A stretch of DNA of 64,000 nucleotides from Armatimonadota bacterium. Lineage in GTDB: Bacteria; Sysuimicrobiota; Sysuimicrobiia; Sysuimicrobiales; Humicultoraceae. Both the position numbers and the translations under genes were made by a program. The notes below the pieces were generated by a model. It saw only the letters and a list, made by a program, of their open reading frames with translations. It was not told the origin of the DNA and did not search any database. Below are positions 47,246-49,693 of the stretch, piece by piece. The stretch is taken from the NCBI GenBank assembly GCA_031459855.1, contig JAVKHP010000001.1, positions 2,439,906 through 2,503,905 of the forward strand, given 5' to 3'. Each line of letters opens with the position of its first letter. Positions within the stretch are counted from its first letter, which is position 1.

Positions 47246-47319
47246 TGGGGGATCGTCTAACGGTAGGACGACGGGCTCTGGACCCGTTAGTGGGGGTTCG
47301 AATCCTCCTCCCCCAGCCA
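47246..47319 (+). tRNA. tRNA-Gln (anticodon CTG)
   Basis: Acceptor stem TGGGGGA/TCCCCCA beginning with the U1-A72 pair typical of tRNA-Gln, D arm, anticodon stem ACGGG/CCCGT with loop CTCTGGA (anticodon CTG reads CAG), T arm with GTTCGAATC, discriminator G, and encoded CCA (47317-47319). Confidence 0.97.
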
Positions 47320-47353: not shown

Positions 47354-48004
47354 TCATCGCCCTGCCAGCACCGCTCGTACGTCCGCTGCGAGATCGACGG
47401 CAGAGATCCCCCACGGGTACGATACGCGGATCGTCCCGCGTCGGTCGATGAGGTAGAGCGCCGTCGCGTGGCCCACGCGTACGTCCTCGGAGGTGCCGGC
47501 GGCCGCGTAGGGCGTCGGATACACGTTGAACGCGCGGTAGACGCGGGCCAGGGCTCCAGGCGCCCCGGTGAGGCCGATGAACGCCGGGTGGAAGAGGGAC
47601 ACGTACCGGCGAAGCCGTGCGGGCGTGTCATGGCCGGGGTCGACGGTCACGAAGAGGACACGCAGGTGCGCTGCGTCCGCCCCGAGCAGCGCTCGCACCT
47701 GCTTCAGCGTCACCAGCGTCAACGGACAGACGTCGGGGCAGCGCGTGTAGCCAAAGGCCAGGAGCGTCACGGCGCCTGTCACGCGCTGCAACGGGAAGGG
47801 ACGGCCGTCGTGGTCGAGCAGGGTGACCTCCCGCGGGAACGGCACCTGAACCGGCAGGCCGTGGAAGCCGGGTGGAGCCGCACGGGTGCAGGCTCCACCC
47901 AGAACTGCCAGCCCCACGACCGCCCAGGCCTGGAGGGTGCGCGTCGCGACCGACCGCGGGCGGCGTCGCGTGCAGTCCGGTCTGCCACGGCCTCCGGTCC
48001 CCAC
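47354..48004 (-). CDS. SCO1/SenC/PrrC family copper chaperone (lipoprotein)
   Basis: 216 residues. N-terminal signal with a lipobox-like AVLGGAC, then a thioredoxin-fold SCO domain: FGYTRCPDVCPLTL carries the CxxxC copper site, VTVDPGHDTPARLRRY follows, and the metal-binding His lies in GHATALYLID. SCO proteins insert copper into the CuA site of cytochrome oxidase or related centres. GTG 48004, 26 nt after the propeller gene's stop, fits the signal peptide best. Same operon as the cupredoxin-propeller gene, which may be its client (inference). Confidence 0.92.
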   Translation of the reverse strand: MGTGGRGRPDCTRRRPRSVATRTLQAWAVVGLAVLGGACTRAAPPGFHGLPVQVPFPREVTLLDHDGRPFPLQRVTGAVTLLAFGYTRCPDVCPLTLVTLKQVRALLGADAAHLRVLFVTVDPGHDTPARLRRYVSLFHPAFIGLTGAPGALARVYRAFNVYPTPYAAAGTSEDVRVGHATALYLIDRRGTIRVSYPWGISAVDLAADVRAVLAGR

Positions 48005-48029
48005 GGCGTCTTCGCGTCGTGCCGGGGCG

Positions 48030-49547
48030 TCAGTGCGCCGGCCTGGGCTTGACGACGACGACACCGTTCCCGCCCCACGCGTCCGGGCCGAGGTGCACGT
48101 CGCCCGCCTTGCGCGGTGGCGTGGTGGTGAGGTCGACCACCGTGAGGATCGGCGCGTACTTGTTGGTGACGTAGGCCAGGAAGCCACCGCCCTGCTTGAA
48201 CCCGTAGGCCACGCCGTGGGCCCCTTTGTACGCCGGTACCTGGCTGACGACCCGAATCCTCGACGGATCGGTGTAGTCGACGGCGATGACGCTGACGTTG
48301 GCGGTCCCGGTGTTGGCTACGACCACGTAGCGGCCGTCCGGGCTGAACGGCGACTGGATGGGCACAGCCCCCACGCGCACGACCTTGACCACCTTCGGAT
48401 TCGCCGGGTCGCGCAGGTCCTGGAAGACGACGCGTCCCTGGAGCAGCTTGTCGTGGGTGAGGAGGACCGTCGTGGTCGCCGCGTAGCGCTTGTTGGGCGA
48501 GATGGCGGCGTACAGCGGCAGGTTGGCGCCGAACGCCTTCCCATCGAGGTCCGTGACTTTCGTCAGATCCACCGTGGCGAGCAGTTTCTCCGCGTCGAGG
48601 TCGATGATCGACATCTTGCCCGCCAGCGCGTTGGCCGCGACCAGGATCTTGCCGTCGGGCGAGATCCAGCCGCCGTGCGGTCCGAACGGCACCTCGATGT
48701 AGCGCACCGGTACCTGCGCCGCCGGAACCGCGGGGTCCACGGCTTTGACCAGGTCGAGCACGGCGATCCGGTTCGAGGCGTTGATGGTCACCACGGCCTT
48801 GCCCCGCGGCGTGGTGTGGGTGTGCGCCGGCGACTCGCCCACCGGGATGCGGTTCTTGACGATACGCCGGGTGGCGACGTCGATGATGGTCAGGTAGTTC
48901 TCGTGCCAGTTGGTCTGGACGAGGTACCGCTCGTCCCAGGAGACCATGGGGTTGTGCGGGTTGTTGAAGTCGCCATCGATGGTCGCCTTCACCCGCATCG
49001 TGACGGCGTCCACGACCGTGATGGTCCCGGGCGCCTCGCGGTTGGGTCGGGTCTGGAACTGGGTGTCGACCCAGACCTCACCGCGGCCGCGCACGCGGGG
49101 CGGCACCACGCTGGTGGGGCTGGCCGGTGGCCACGCCTTGATGAACTGCGGCAAGGGGTCGGTCCCGACCGCGATCTGTCCGTCCATGTAGGGGTGGATC
49201 GCGCACACGTAGACGTAGACGCCGGGCTTGGTGAACTGCTGACGCGCGGTGCCCTTGCGCCCCGCAATGGTGATGGTCTTCGCCGGCTCGTCGAACCCGG
49301 TGAGGAACGTGATCGTGTGCAGCGTCCGGGCGTCGGAGAACGACCACACGACCTCGTCACCGACGCCGACCCGCAGCGTCTGCGGGAAGAACCACGGCGC
49401 GAACTCGCTGACCACGACGGCGTTCTTCGGCAGGGCGGGCGTCGGCGCGCTGCCCGGTGTCTGCGCCGAGCGCGCCGCCGCTGCCGGCCAGACGATCGTG
49501 GCGGCCGCGAGTGCCAGCACCATCACCGTTCGCCGTACGGTTGCCAT
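48030..49547 (-). CDS. Secreted cupredoxin / beta-propeller fusion protein
   Basis: 505 residues. Signal peptide (about 1-29, VMVLALAAATIVWPAAAARS). An N-terminal cupredoxin (about 35-130) carries candidate type-1 copper ligands: His in RTLHTITF and Cys-x2-His-x2-Met in CAIHPYM. A seven-bladed YVTN/YncE-like propeller (about 150-500) follows with GTITVVDAVTMRVKATIDG, YLTIIDVATRRIV and FSPDGRYVVVANTGTANVS. The domain order is opposite to NosZ. ATG 49547 follows GGGGGGTGTC. Probably a periplasmic or extracellular redox protein; its substrate is unknown. Confidence 0.85.
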   Translation of the reverse strand: MATVRRTVMVLALAAATIVWPAAAARSAQTPGSAPTPALPKNAVVVSEFAPWFFPQTLRVGVGDEVVWSFSDARTLHTITFLTGFDEPAKTITIAGRKGTARQQFTKPGVYVYVCAIHPYMDGQIAVGTDPLPQFIKAWPPASPTSVVPPRVRGRGEVWVDTQFQTRPNREAPGTITVVDAVTMRVKATIDGDFNNPHNPMVSWDERYLVQTNWHENYLTIIDVATRRIVKNRIPVGESPAHTHTTPRGKAVVTINASNRIAVLDLVKAVDPAVPAAQVPVRYIEVPFGPHGGWISPDGKILVAANALAGKMSIIDLDAEKLLATVDLTKVTDLDGKAFGANLPLYAAISPNKRYAATTTVLLTHDKLLQGRVVFQDLRDPANPKVVKVVRVGAVPIQSPFSPDGRYVVVANTGTANVSVIAVDYTDPSRIRVVSQVPAYKGAHGVAYGFKQGGGFLAYVTNKYAPILTVVDLTTTPPRKAGDVHLGPDAWGGNGVVVVKPRPAH

Positions 49548-49678
49548 GACGACACCCCCCTGGTGGAGTGACTGGCCGTGCGAGGCGGATCGTGCACCCG
49601 GTGTTGGTCCGTACGTCGTCCTGCCGCGGCAACGCACGCCTTTCCACGTGCGCGGCGTCTTGCAGGAGCGACTAGATC

Positions 49679-49693
49679 ATTAGGTCTCCTAAT
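49679..49693. promoter_or_regulatory. Palindromic operator-like site ATTAGG-N3-CCTAAT
   Basis: Perfect 6-bp arms around TCT, in an AT-rich patch about 130 bp upstream of the cupredoxin-propeller start. Half-sites TTAGG/CCTAA resemble DtxR/IdeR-type boxes, but the spacing differs, so the regulator is unknown. Confidence 0.4.

Follow-up and report, generated by a model that had tools for sequence, protein, structure and literature searches.

What does a secreted protein that joins a cupredoxin to a propeller do in a bacterium that carries its gene directly ahead of an SCO gene? The question is raised by a two-gene locus in a 64,000-nucleotide stretch of DNA from an Armatimonadota bacterium (assembly GCA_031459855.1, contig JAVKHP010000001.1, positions 2,439,906 to 2,503,905), which we call the window. 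Gene A encodes the cupredoxin-propeller protein and gene B an SCO1/SenC lipoprotein. The original prediction, a candidate copper redox module, overlooked two things: the propeller has a channel signature of its own made of four His and one Gln, and it belongs to a wider family tied to copper-resistance loci. Judging from sequence evidence, we tentatively favour, at a little under an even chance, the reading that gene A is a MarR-controlled periplasmic copper-handling redox protein that would work with SCO in bacteria reducing nitrous oxide (N2O).

The two domains and the channel signature

Gene A has the following features, all on the minus strand of the window.

48030..49547: gene A, secreted cupredoxin-propeller protein of 505 residues, ATG at 49547
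49143..49436: cupredoxin domain, about residues 38-135
49317-49319, 49203-49205, 49194-49196 and 49185-49187: type-1 ligands H77, C115, H118 and M121, in that order
48033..49100: 7-bladed YVTN/YncE-type propeller, model residues 150-505
48216..48956: channel signature H198-N199, H242, H291, Q398 and H444, at the innermost-strand starts of blades 1, 2, 3, 5 and 6

An in-frame GTG is present upstream of the ATG. The protein runs from a hydrophobic leader (judged by eye) through the cupredoxin to the propeller, which scores above cut-off with PF21783 (YncE-like propeller, 7e-9, Pfam scan) and TIGR02276 (YVTN repeat, 1.5e-7, NCBIfam scan). The cupredoxin scores below cut-off with TIGR02657 (amicyanin, 1.3e-6, NCBIfam) and PF00127 (0.031, Pfam). 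In the HMMER alignment residues 37-127 align with amicyanin, which places H77 and C115-x2-H118-x2-M121 at type-1 positions, and all four ligands are invariant in the four full-length homologues. Gene A has the ligand order and spacing of amicyanin-type cupredoxins (H...C-x2-H-x2-M) over a domain-wide alignment, but its domain is fused to a propeller and stays under the curated cut-offs of both models. The secreted type-1-like copper domain followed by a YVTN propeller, as originally predicted, is borne out by these scans and by the ligand alignment.

A whole-protein model built from four sequences reaches a predicted local distance difference test score (pLDDT) of 65 and a predicted template modelling score (pTM) of 0.64, with a fair propeller and a poor cupredoxin. 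By our reading of its strand list, each signature residue opens an innermost strand. The channel of gene A holds four conserved His, or six in its close members, and no His-His doublet. Invariance of the additional H215 and H244 is confined to the three close members, which come from the window genome (G000) and two related genomes (G006 and G020).

A tblastn search of plasmids returned 18 records. Only the Methylocystis rosea type, found on two plasmids, spans both domains with all four type-1 ligands; the remaining matches are propellers without a cupredoxin. Plasmid hits H3, H6, H9 and H12 (apparent duplicates), H13 and H15 were left out. In a first alignment every one of the four two-domain proteins has H198, N199, H242, H291, Q398 and H444, and so do 10 of the 11 plasmid propellers. 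The exception is a Variovorax protein (H18), which was excluded from the signature count, as its annotated gene is in two pieces with a stretch out of frame. In an enlarged alignment all six channel residues are found in 20 of 27 proteins and not in the other seven, which are generic propellers. Searching with the Pseudomonas veronii propeller yielded five of the 20 (Shinella, Enterococcus, Cytobacillus, Rhodococcus and P. kurunegalensis), and searching with a generic propeller, L025, yielded the seven negatives. The 20 signature proteins span Actinomycetota, Bacillota, Deinococcota, Pseudomonadota and the phylum of the window, and H215 and H244 vary among them.

This strictness bears on a plain explanation of gene A, in which the cupredoxin is an ordinary electron carrier, the propeller a metal-free docking or structural part, and SCO a protein merely co-regulated with them that serves the CuA sites of NosZ and cytochrome oxidase. 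Metal-free YVTN propellers are common, and the best fold match of our propeller model is one of the YVTN type (1l0q, Z 36.7). Alongside its single SCO gene the window genome encodes a clade II NosZ and two COX2 subunits of the CuA type, and SCO could therefore serve those CuA sites. Mere docking would not require a His/Gln channel set that is strict over 20 proteins and five phyla while H215 and H244 vary, and we regard this explanation as improbable.

The signature also goes with a copper context. Copper or heavy-metal genes lie in the stretch viewed at 13 of the 16 signature plasmid loci compared to 1 of 7 loci without the set (Fisher p 0.005), in a test for which we picked the loci and categories ourselves and counted a 'heavy metal' P-type ATPase as copper context. 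The genes concerned encode CueP, CopC/CopD, a multicopper oxidase, an azurin-like protein and copper or heavy-metal P-type ATPases. The sole signature-negative locus with a copper gene is that of Priestia, with a multicopper oxidase at the edge, and four of the seven negative loci are pyrroloquinoline quinone (PQQ) dehydrogenase loci. One could instead suppose that the channel binds another metal such as zinc and that the protein is a metallochaperone like AztD, reportedly a zinc metallochaperone with a propeller. Several signature propellers weakly match the AztD NCBIfam model; gene A itself does not, and apart from a ZnuA gene near the G006 locus the neighbours are copper and not zinc genes, so that we hold a zinc role to be very unlikely.

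Two members of this family, which has no name of its own in the profile libraries searched, WP_092239342.1 of Pseudomonas veronii and WP_104992625.1 of Deinococcus, represent propellers annotated as 'cytochrome D1 domain-containing' or 'YncE family' proteins. They have the same HN-H-H-Q-H set and a copper context, but differ from gene A in lacking the cupredoxin and in having PAQ or PVQ in a further blade. To our knowledge no function has been assigned to such copper-cluster propellers. A counterpart in architecture outside the phylum is WP_245435095.1 of Methylocystis rosea, a 'hypothetical protein' with the same domain order, type-1 ligands and channel set and 35% identity to gene A, but about 100 residues longer. 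About 2.4 kb upstream of it lies another propeller that carries the complete HN-H-H-Q-H set (L046:4935-5912). Paracoccus has this propeller joined to DUF305; counted with the cupredoxin fusion, the propeller has thus been fused to a second domain at least twice.

The SCO gene, the probable regulator and the likely N-oxide setting

The remaining features of the locus are these.

47354..48004, minus strand: gene B, SCO1/SenC lipoprotein, with a presumed GTG start at 48004
47726-47740, minus strand: C89-x3-C93 of gene B
47468-47470, minus strand: distal His179 of gene B
49679..49693, no strand assigned: operator-like dyad ATTAGG-TCT-CCTAAT, 131 nucleotides before the ATG of gene A

Gene B starts 25 nucleotides past the gene A stop. 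Its match to PF02630 (E 4.3e-36, 124 bits against a cut-off of 22.8), the C-x3-C motif with the distal His, and a hydrophobic leader with lipobox Cys39 (judged by eye) confirm the SCO-type lipoprotein with CxxxC that had been proposed. Equally, no oxidase is found near the pair, as had been stated, and the two CuA-type COX2 genes of the genome are 310 and 597 kb off. PF02630 matches number one in G000, one in G020 and two in G006, both of the latter on the contig of gene A. The pair is flanked on one side by a tRNA-Gln gene (47246-47319, 34 nucleotides past the end of gene B), which follows an aminoacyl-tRNA synthetase gene, and on the other by an OsmC-like gene.

A profile search of 43 genomes from the phylum detects gene A in three of them: G000, G006 (88% identity) and G020 (74-76%). 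SCO lies immediately downstream in all three. Among 386 genomes searched, with up to three candidates scored per genome, these were the only hits, leaving 0 of 343 genomes outside the phylum at E 1e-20; the seven genomes from the phylum of G222 gave no match. Scans of genome contigs gave two generic propellers besides one close relative, and scans of viral contigs gave no relative. Because the surroundings of gene A differ among G000, G006 and G020, the gene A-SCO cassette may be mobile. In another family of the phylum, four proteins (L037 to L040, from G022, G034, G016 and G031) have the reverse architecture, with a YVTN propeller first and a type-1 cupredoxin (C-x2-H-x2-M) last, and their channel His set differs from that of gene A; L037 and L039 were part of the first alignment only.

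In both G006 and G020 a MarR gene stands directly ahead of gene A on the same strand and heads the operon. The C-terminal tail of its product, as read from the sequence, contains several His and four Cys (CVTCR...HHC...DC.DH). The window genome has the orthologous MarR (56% identity) 1.8 Mb from gene A, and a search for a MarR remnant beside gene A found none. What lies there is the dyad in its perfect form, and across the 3.19 Mb genome the 12-base pattern ATTAGG-N3-CCTAAT occurs nowhere else, even when one mismatch is allowed. The dyad recurs just ahead of MarR as TAGTTAGG-ACC-CTTAACTA in G006 and as TTTAATTAGG-CGT-CCTAATTAAA in G020, and because the arrangement is kept in these relatives it is more than chance.

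MarR is present in 13 of the 43 phylum genomes. At up to one mismatch TTAGG-N3-CCTAA is found beside it at five of these 13 loci (G001, G006, G012, G020 and G033), where about 0.2 would be expected from base composition. Four further loci (G000, G024, G030 and G038) have it with two mismatches, a level at which chance plays a larger part. No such site is found beside MarR in G013, G021 and G027, and neither of the two hits in G018 lies upstream of MarR. Given this recurrence, the window dyad is best read as the predicted operator at which MarR would act in trans on both gene A and SCO. The original prediction of an upstream dyad for a metal-responsive regulator is thereby upheld for the dyad and refined for the regulator; in place of a classical copper sensor, it is probably a member of the MarR family with a tail rich in Cys and His. 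DtxR- and CsoR-type operators were dropped because the conserved neighbour is a MarR.

A cupredoxin gene adjoins MarR at 8 of the 13 loci. One small type is found in seven genomes (G000, G012, G020, G027, G030, G033 and G038), and another type in G006. The small secreted cupredoxin (L044:969-1412 and orthologues), divergent from MarR in the seven genomes, has a C-x-LHP motif and lacks the usual C-x2-H-x2-M. In G001 (L065:1477-2813) a perfect operator accompanies MarR, and the protoglobin gene that comes after it (PF11563, 3.4e-36) hints at a gaseous signal.

Both gene A and MarR go with N2O reductase. The window genome carries a full-length clade II (Sec-type) NosZ gene (G000:C1:795783-797618; L036:6133-8619) that scores 819 bits against a cut-off of 625. 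Full-length nosZ is present in 3 of 3 gene A carriers compared to 9 of 40 other genomes (Fisher p 0.018) and in 9 of 13 MarR genomes compared to 3 of 30 others (Fisher p 2e-4); these tests are uncorrected for phylogeny and the first rests on three carriers. The link between MarR and nosZ has exceptions on both sides, with nosZ and no MarR in G011, G014 and G032, and MarR without full nosZ in G030, G033, G038 and G024, the last with nosZ fragments only. Taken together, the nosZ co-occurrence and the gene content of the Methylocystis locus, described below, point to N-oxide metabolism as the setting.

Known copper propellers and the possibility of catalysis

The conserved channel invites a comparison with enzymes. 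In a second explanation, gene A is a catalytic copper oxidoreductase whose channel turns over a small periplasmic substrate, with the type-1 site as relay and SCO loading copper. The propeller model matches NosZ (1fwx, Z 32.5, root mean square deviation 2.6 over 310 aligned residues), hydrazine synthase beta (5c2v, Z 31.8), SBP56 (2ece, Z 31.3) and thiocyanate dehydrogenase (8q9x, Z 30.4; 6g5m, Z 29.5). The fold shared with NosZ, SBP56 and thiocyanate dehydrogenase is compatible with catalysis; a common fold by itself shows no function.

NosZ of clades I, II and III (L-NosZ) resembles gene A in its 7-bladed propeller, channel-facing His and cupredoxin domain, and there is a short sequence similarity around H291. 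Gene A differs in having the cupredoxin at the opposite end, a type-1 site in place of CuA and, in the channel, four His where NosZ has seven; its scores fall far under cut-off. The CuZ site of P. stutzeri NosZ is formed by H129, H130, H178, H326, H382, H433 and H494. Membership of clades I and II is ruled out, as the cupredoxin of gene A has a single Cys, C115, where the CuA motif has two, and both the seven-His CuZ set and its His-His doublet are absent. The best NCBIfam hit is the lactonase-type L-NosZ model (clade III, NF052460), at 63 bits against a cut-off of 700. Generic propellers reach 85-126 bits on the same model, and L025, without any channel His, reaches 114; they outscore gene A, and the hit therefore means only 'propeller'.

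Methanethiol oxidase, of the SBP56 type, is a periplasmic copper propeller whose genes adjoin SCO1/SenC and whose copper His set in Hyphomicrobium is His89-His90, His140 and His412, according to PMC5739008. Gene A differs from it in having no His-His doublet, no adjacent MauG gene seen and no SBP56 among its Pfam matches up to E 1, and membership was rejected on the first and last of these. Thiocyanate dehydrogenase is described in PMC9456337 and PMC6504805 as a 7-bladed propeller with a copper site in its channel; for the active site the latter lists H135-H136, H206, E288, D314, H381, H437, H482 and H528, and it places copC/copD beside the genes. Gene A shares the fold but adds a type-1 domain and does not reproduce the active-site list; membership was rejected by residue list, without a full alignment, on the absence of the His135-His136 doublet.

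These enzymes are precedents, and because of them we count catalysis as possible, if on the unlikely side. It would fit the SCO1/SenC and copC/copD neighbours of the last two, since G006 carries, about 1.5 kb beyond SCO, genes for CopC and for a CopD-YtkA-cytochrome c fusion (L034:12119-14365), and it would fit the co-occurrence of nosZ with gene A and the position of the Methylocystis copy among N-oxide genes. The His-His doublet of all three known enzymes is absent from gene A, however, and the gene context offers no conserved substrate gene. Above all, propellers that have no electron-transfer domain carry this channel set inside copper-resistance clusters, which fits handling better than catabolism; for this reason we prefer redox-coupled copper handling to substrate catalysis.

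A proposed copper-handling model and its meaning

We infer the identity and occupancy of the metals, the electron path, the transfer to or from SCO, the control by MarR with its inducer, and the purpose of the system as follows. Gene A would be a secreted protein with two predicted copper sites, a type-1 (blue) site in the cupredoxin and a metal site at the top of the 7-bladed channel formed by H198, H242, H291 and H444 together with Q398. Copper would bind in the channel, and an electron could leave via the type-1 site to a small cupredoxin or a cytochrome. The membrane-anchored SCO would exchange copper with gene A. MarR would bind TTAGG-N3-CCTAA and switch on gene A and SCO together with the small cupredoxin, in cells that have a high copper demand for N2O reductase and CuA oxidases.

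Several observations weigh against this model. Both structure models give the cupredoxin part very low confidence (pLDDT mostly 30-60, and 49.9 for the cupredoxin modelled alone), and the fold matches of the latter are meaningless, the 50 listed being chance matches with no cupredoxin among them. The plasmid search used the query itself, a choice biased towards look-alikes. Three of the 16 signature loci (Pseudomonas fluorescens, Enterococcus and Rhodococcus) have no clear copper gene, that of P. fluorescens holding just a heavy-metal-associated domain protein. To these is added the narrow base of the gene A-nosZ test.

The Methylocystis locus is a further difficulty. Neither SCO, in the annotated and six-frame neighbourhood, nor MarR is found there; the locus instead holds a multicopper oxidase, a COX1-family gene, SirB2 and NnrS. 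The COX1-family (qNor-like) gene of the plasmid (L046:11412-13724) has an in-frame stop. The SCO partnership of the originally proposed copper module, for which a co-occurrence survey had been suggested, therefore stands for the three phylum carriers and fails at Methylocystis; absent beside one distant full-length homologue, SCO is not an obligate partner of gene A.

Each domain is known on its own. The fusion order, with the cupredoxin first and thus reversed relative to NosZ, the channel set and the copper context are apparently undescribed, as far as our full-text searches of the open literature went; no title on the propeller family or the fusion came up in these searches of the open PMC library. 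It is conceivable, though we consider it doubtful, that gene A represents a fourth kind of copper propeller, in which the four-His and Gln channel of a widespread copper-resistance family is fused to a type-1 relay and served by a dedicated SCO loader and a new class of Cys/His-tailed MarR tied to N2O respiration.

If the copper-handling model holds, a genuine part of copper-resistance clusters would be concealed behind the labels 'YncE family protein' and 'cytochrome D1 domain-containing protein'. Its predicted metal site would be open to mutagenesis right away, and the blue-copper fusion would provide a built-in optical and electrochemical readout of the channel site. The pairing of the sole SCO with gene A would shift the role of SCO here beyond oxidase assembly alone, and the predicted MarR operator would define a regulon that can be tested in a poorly explored group of N2O-reducing bacteria.

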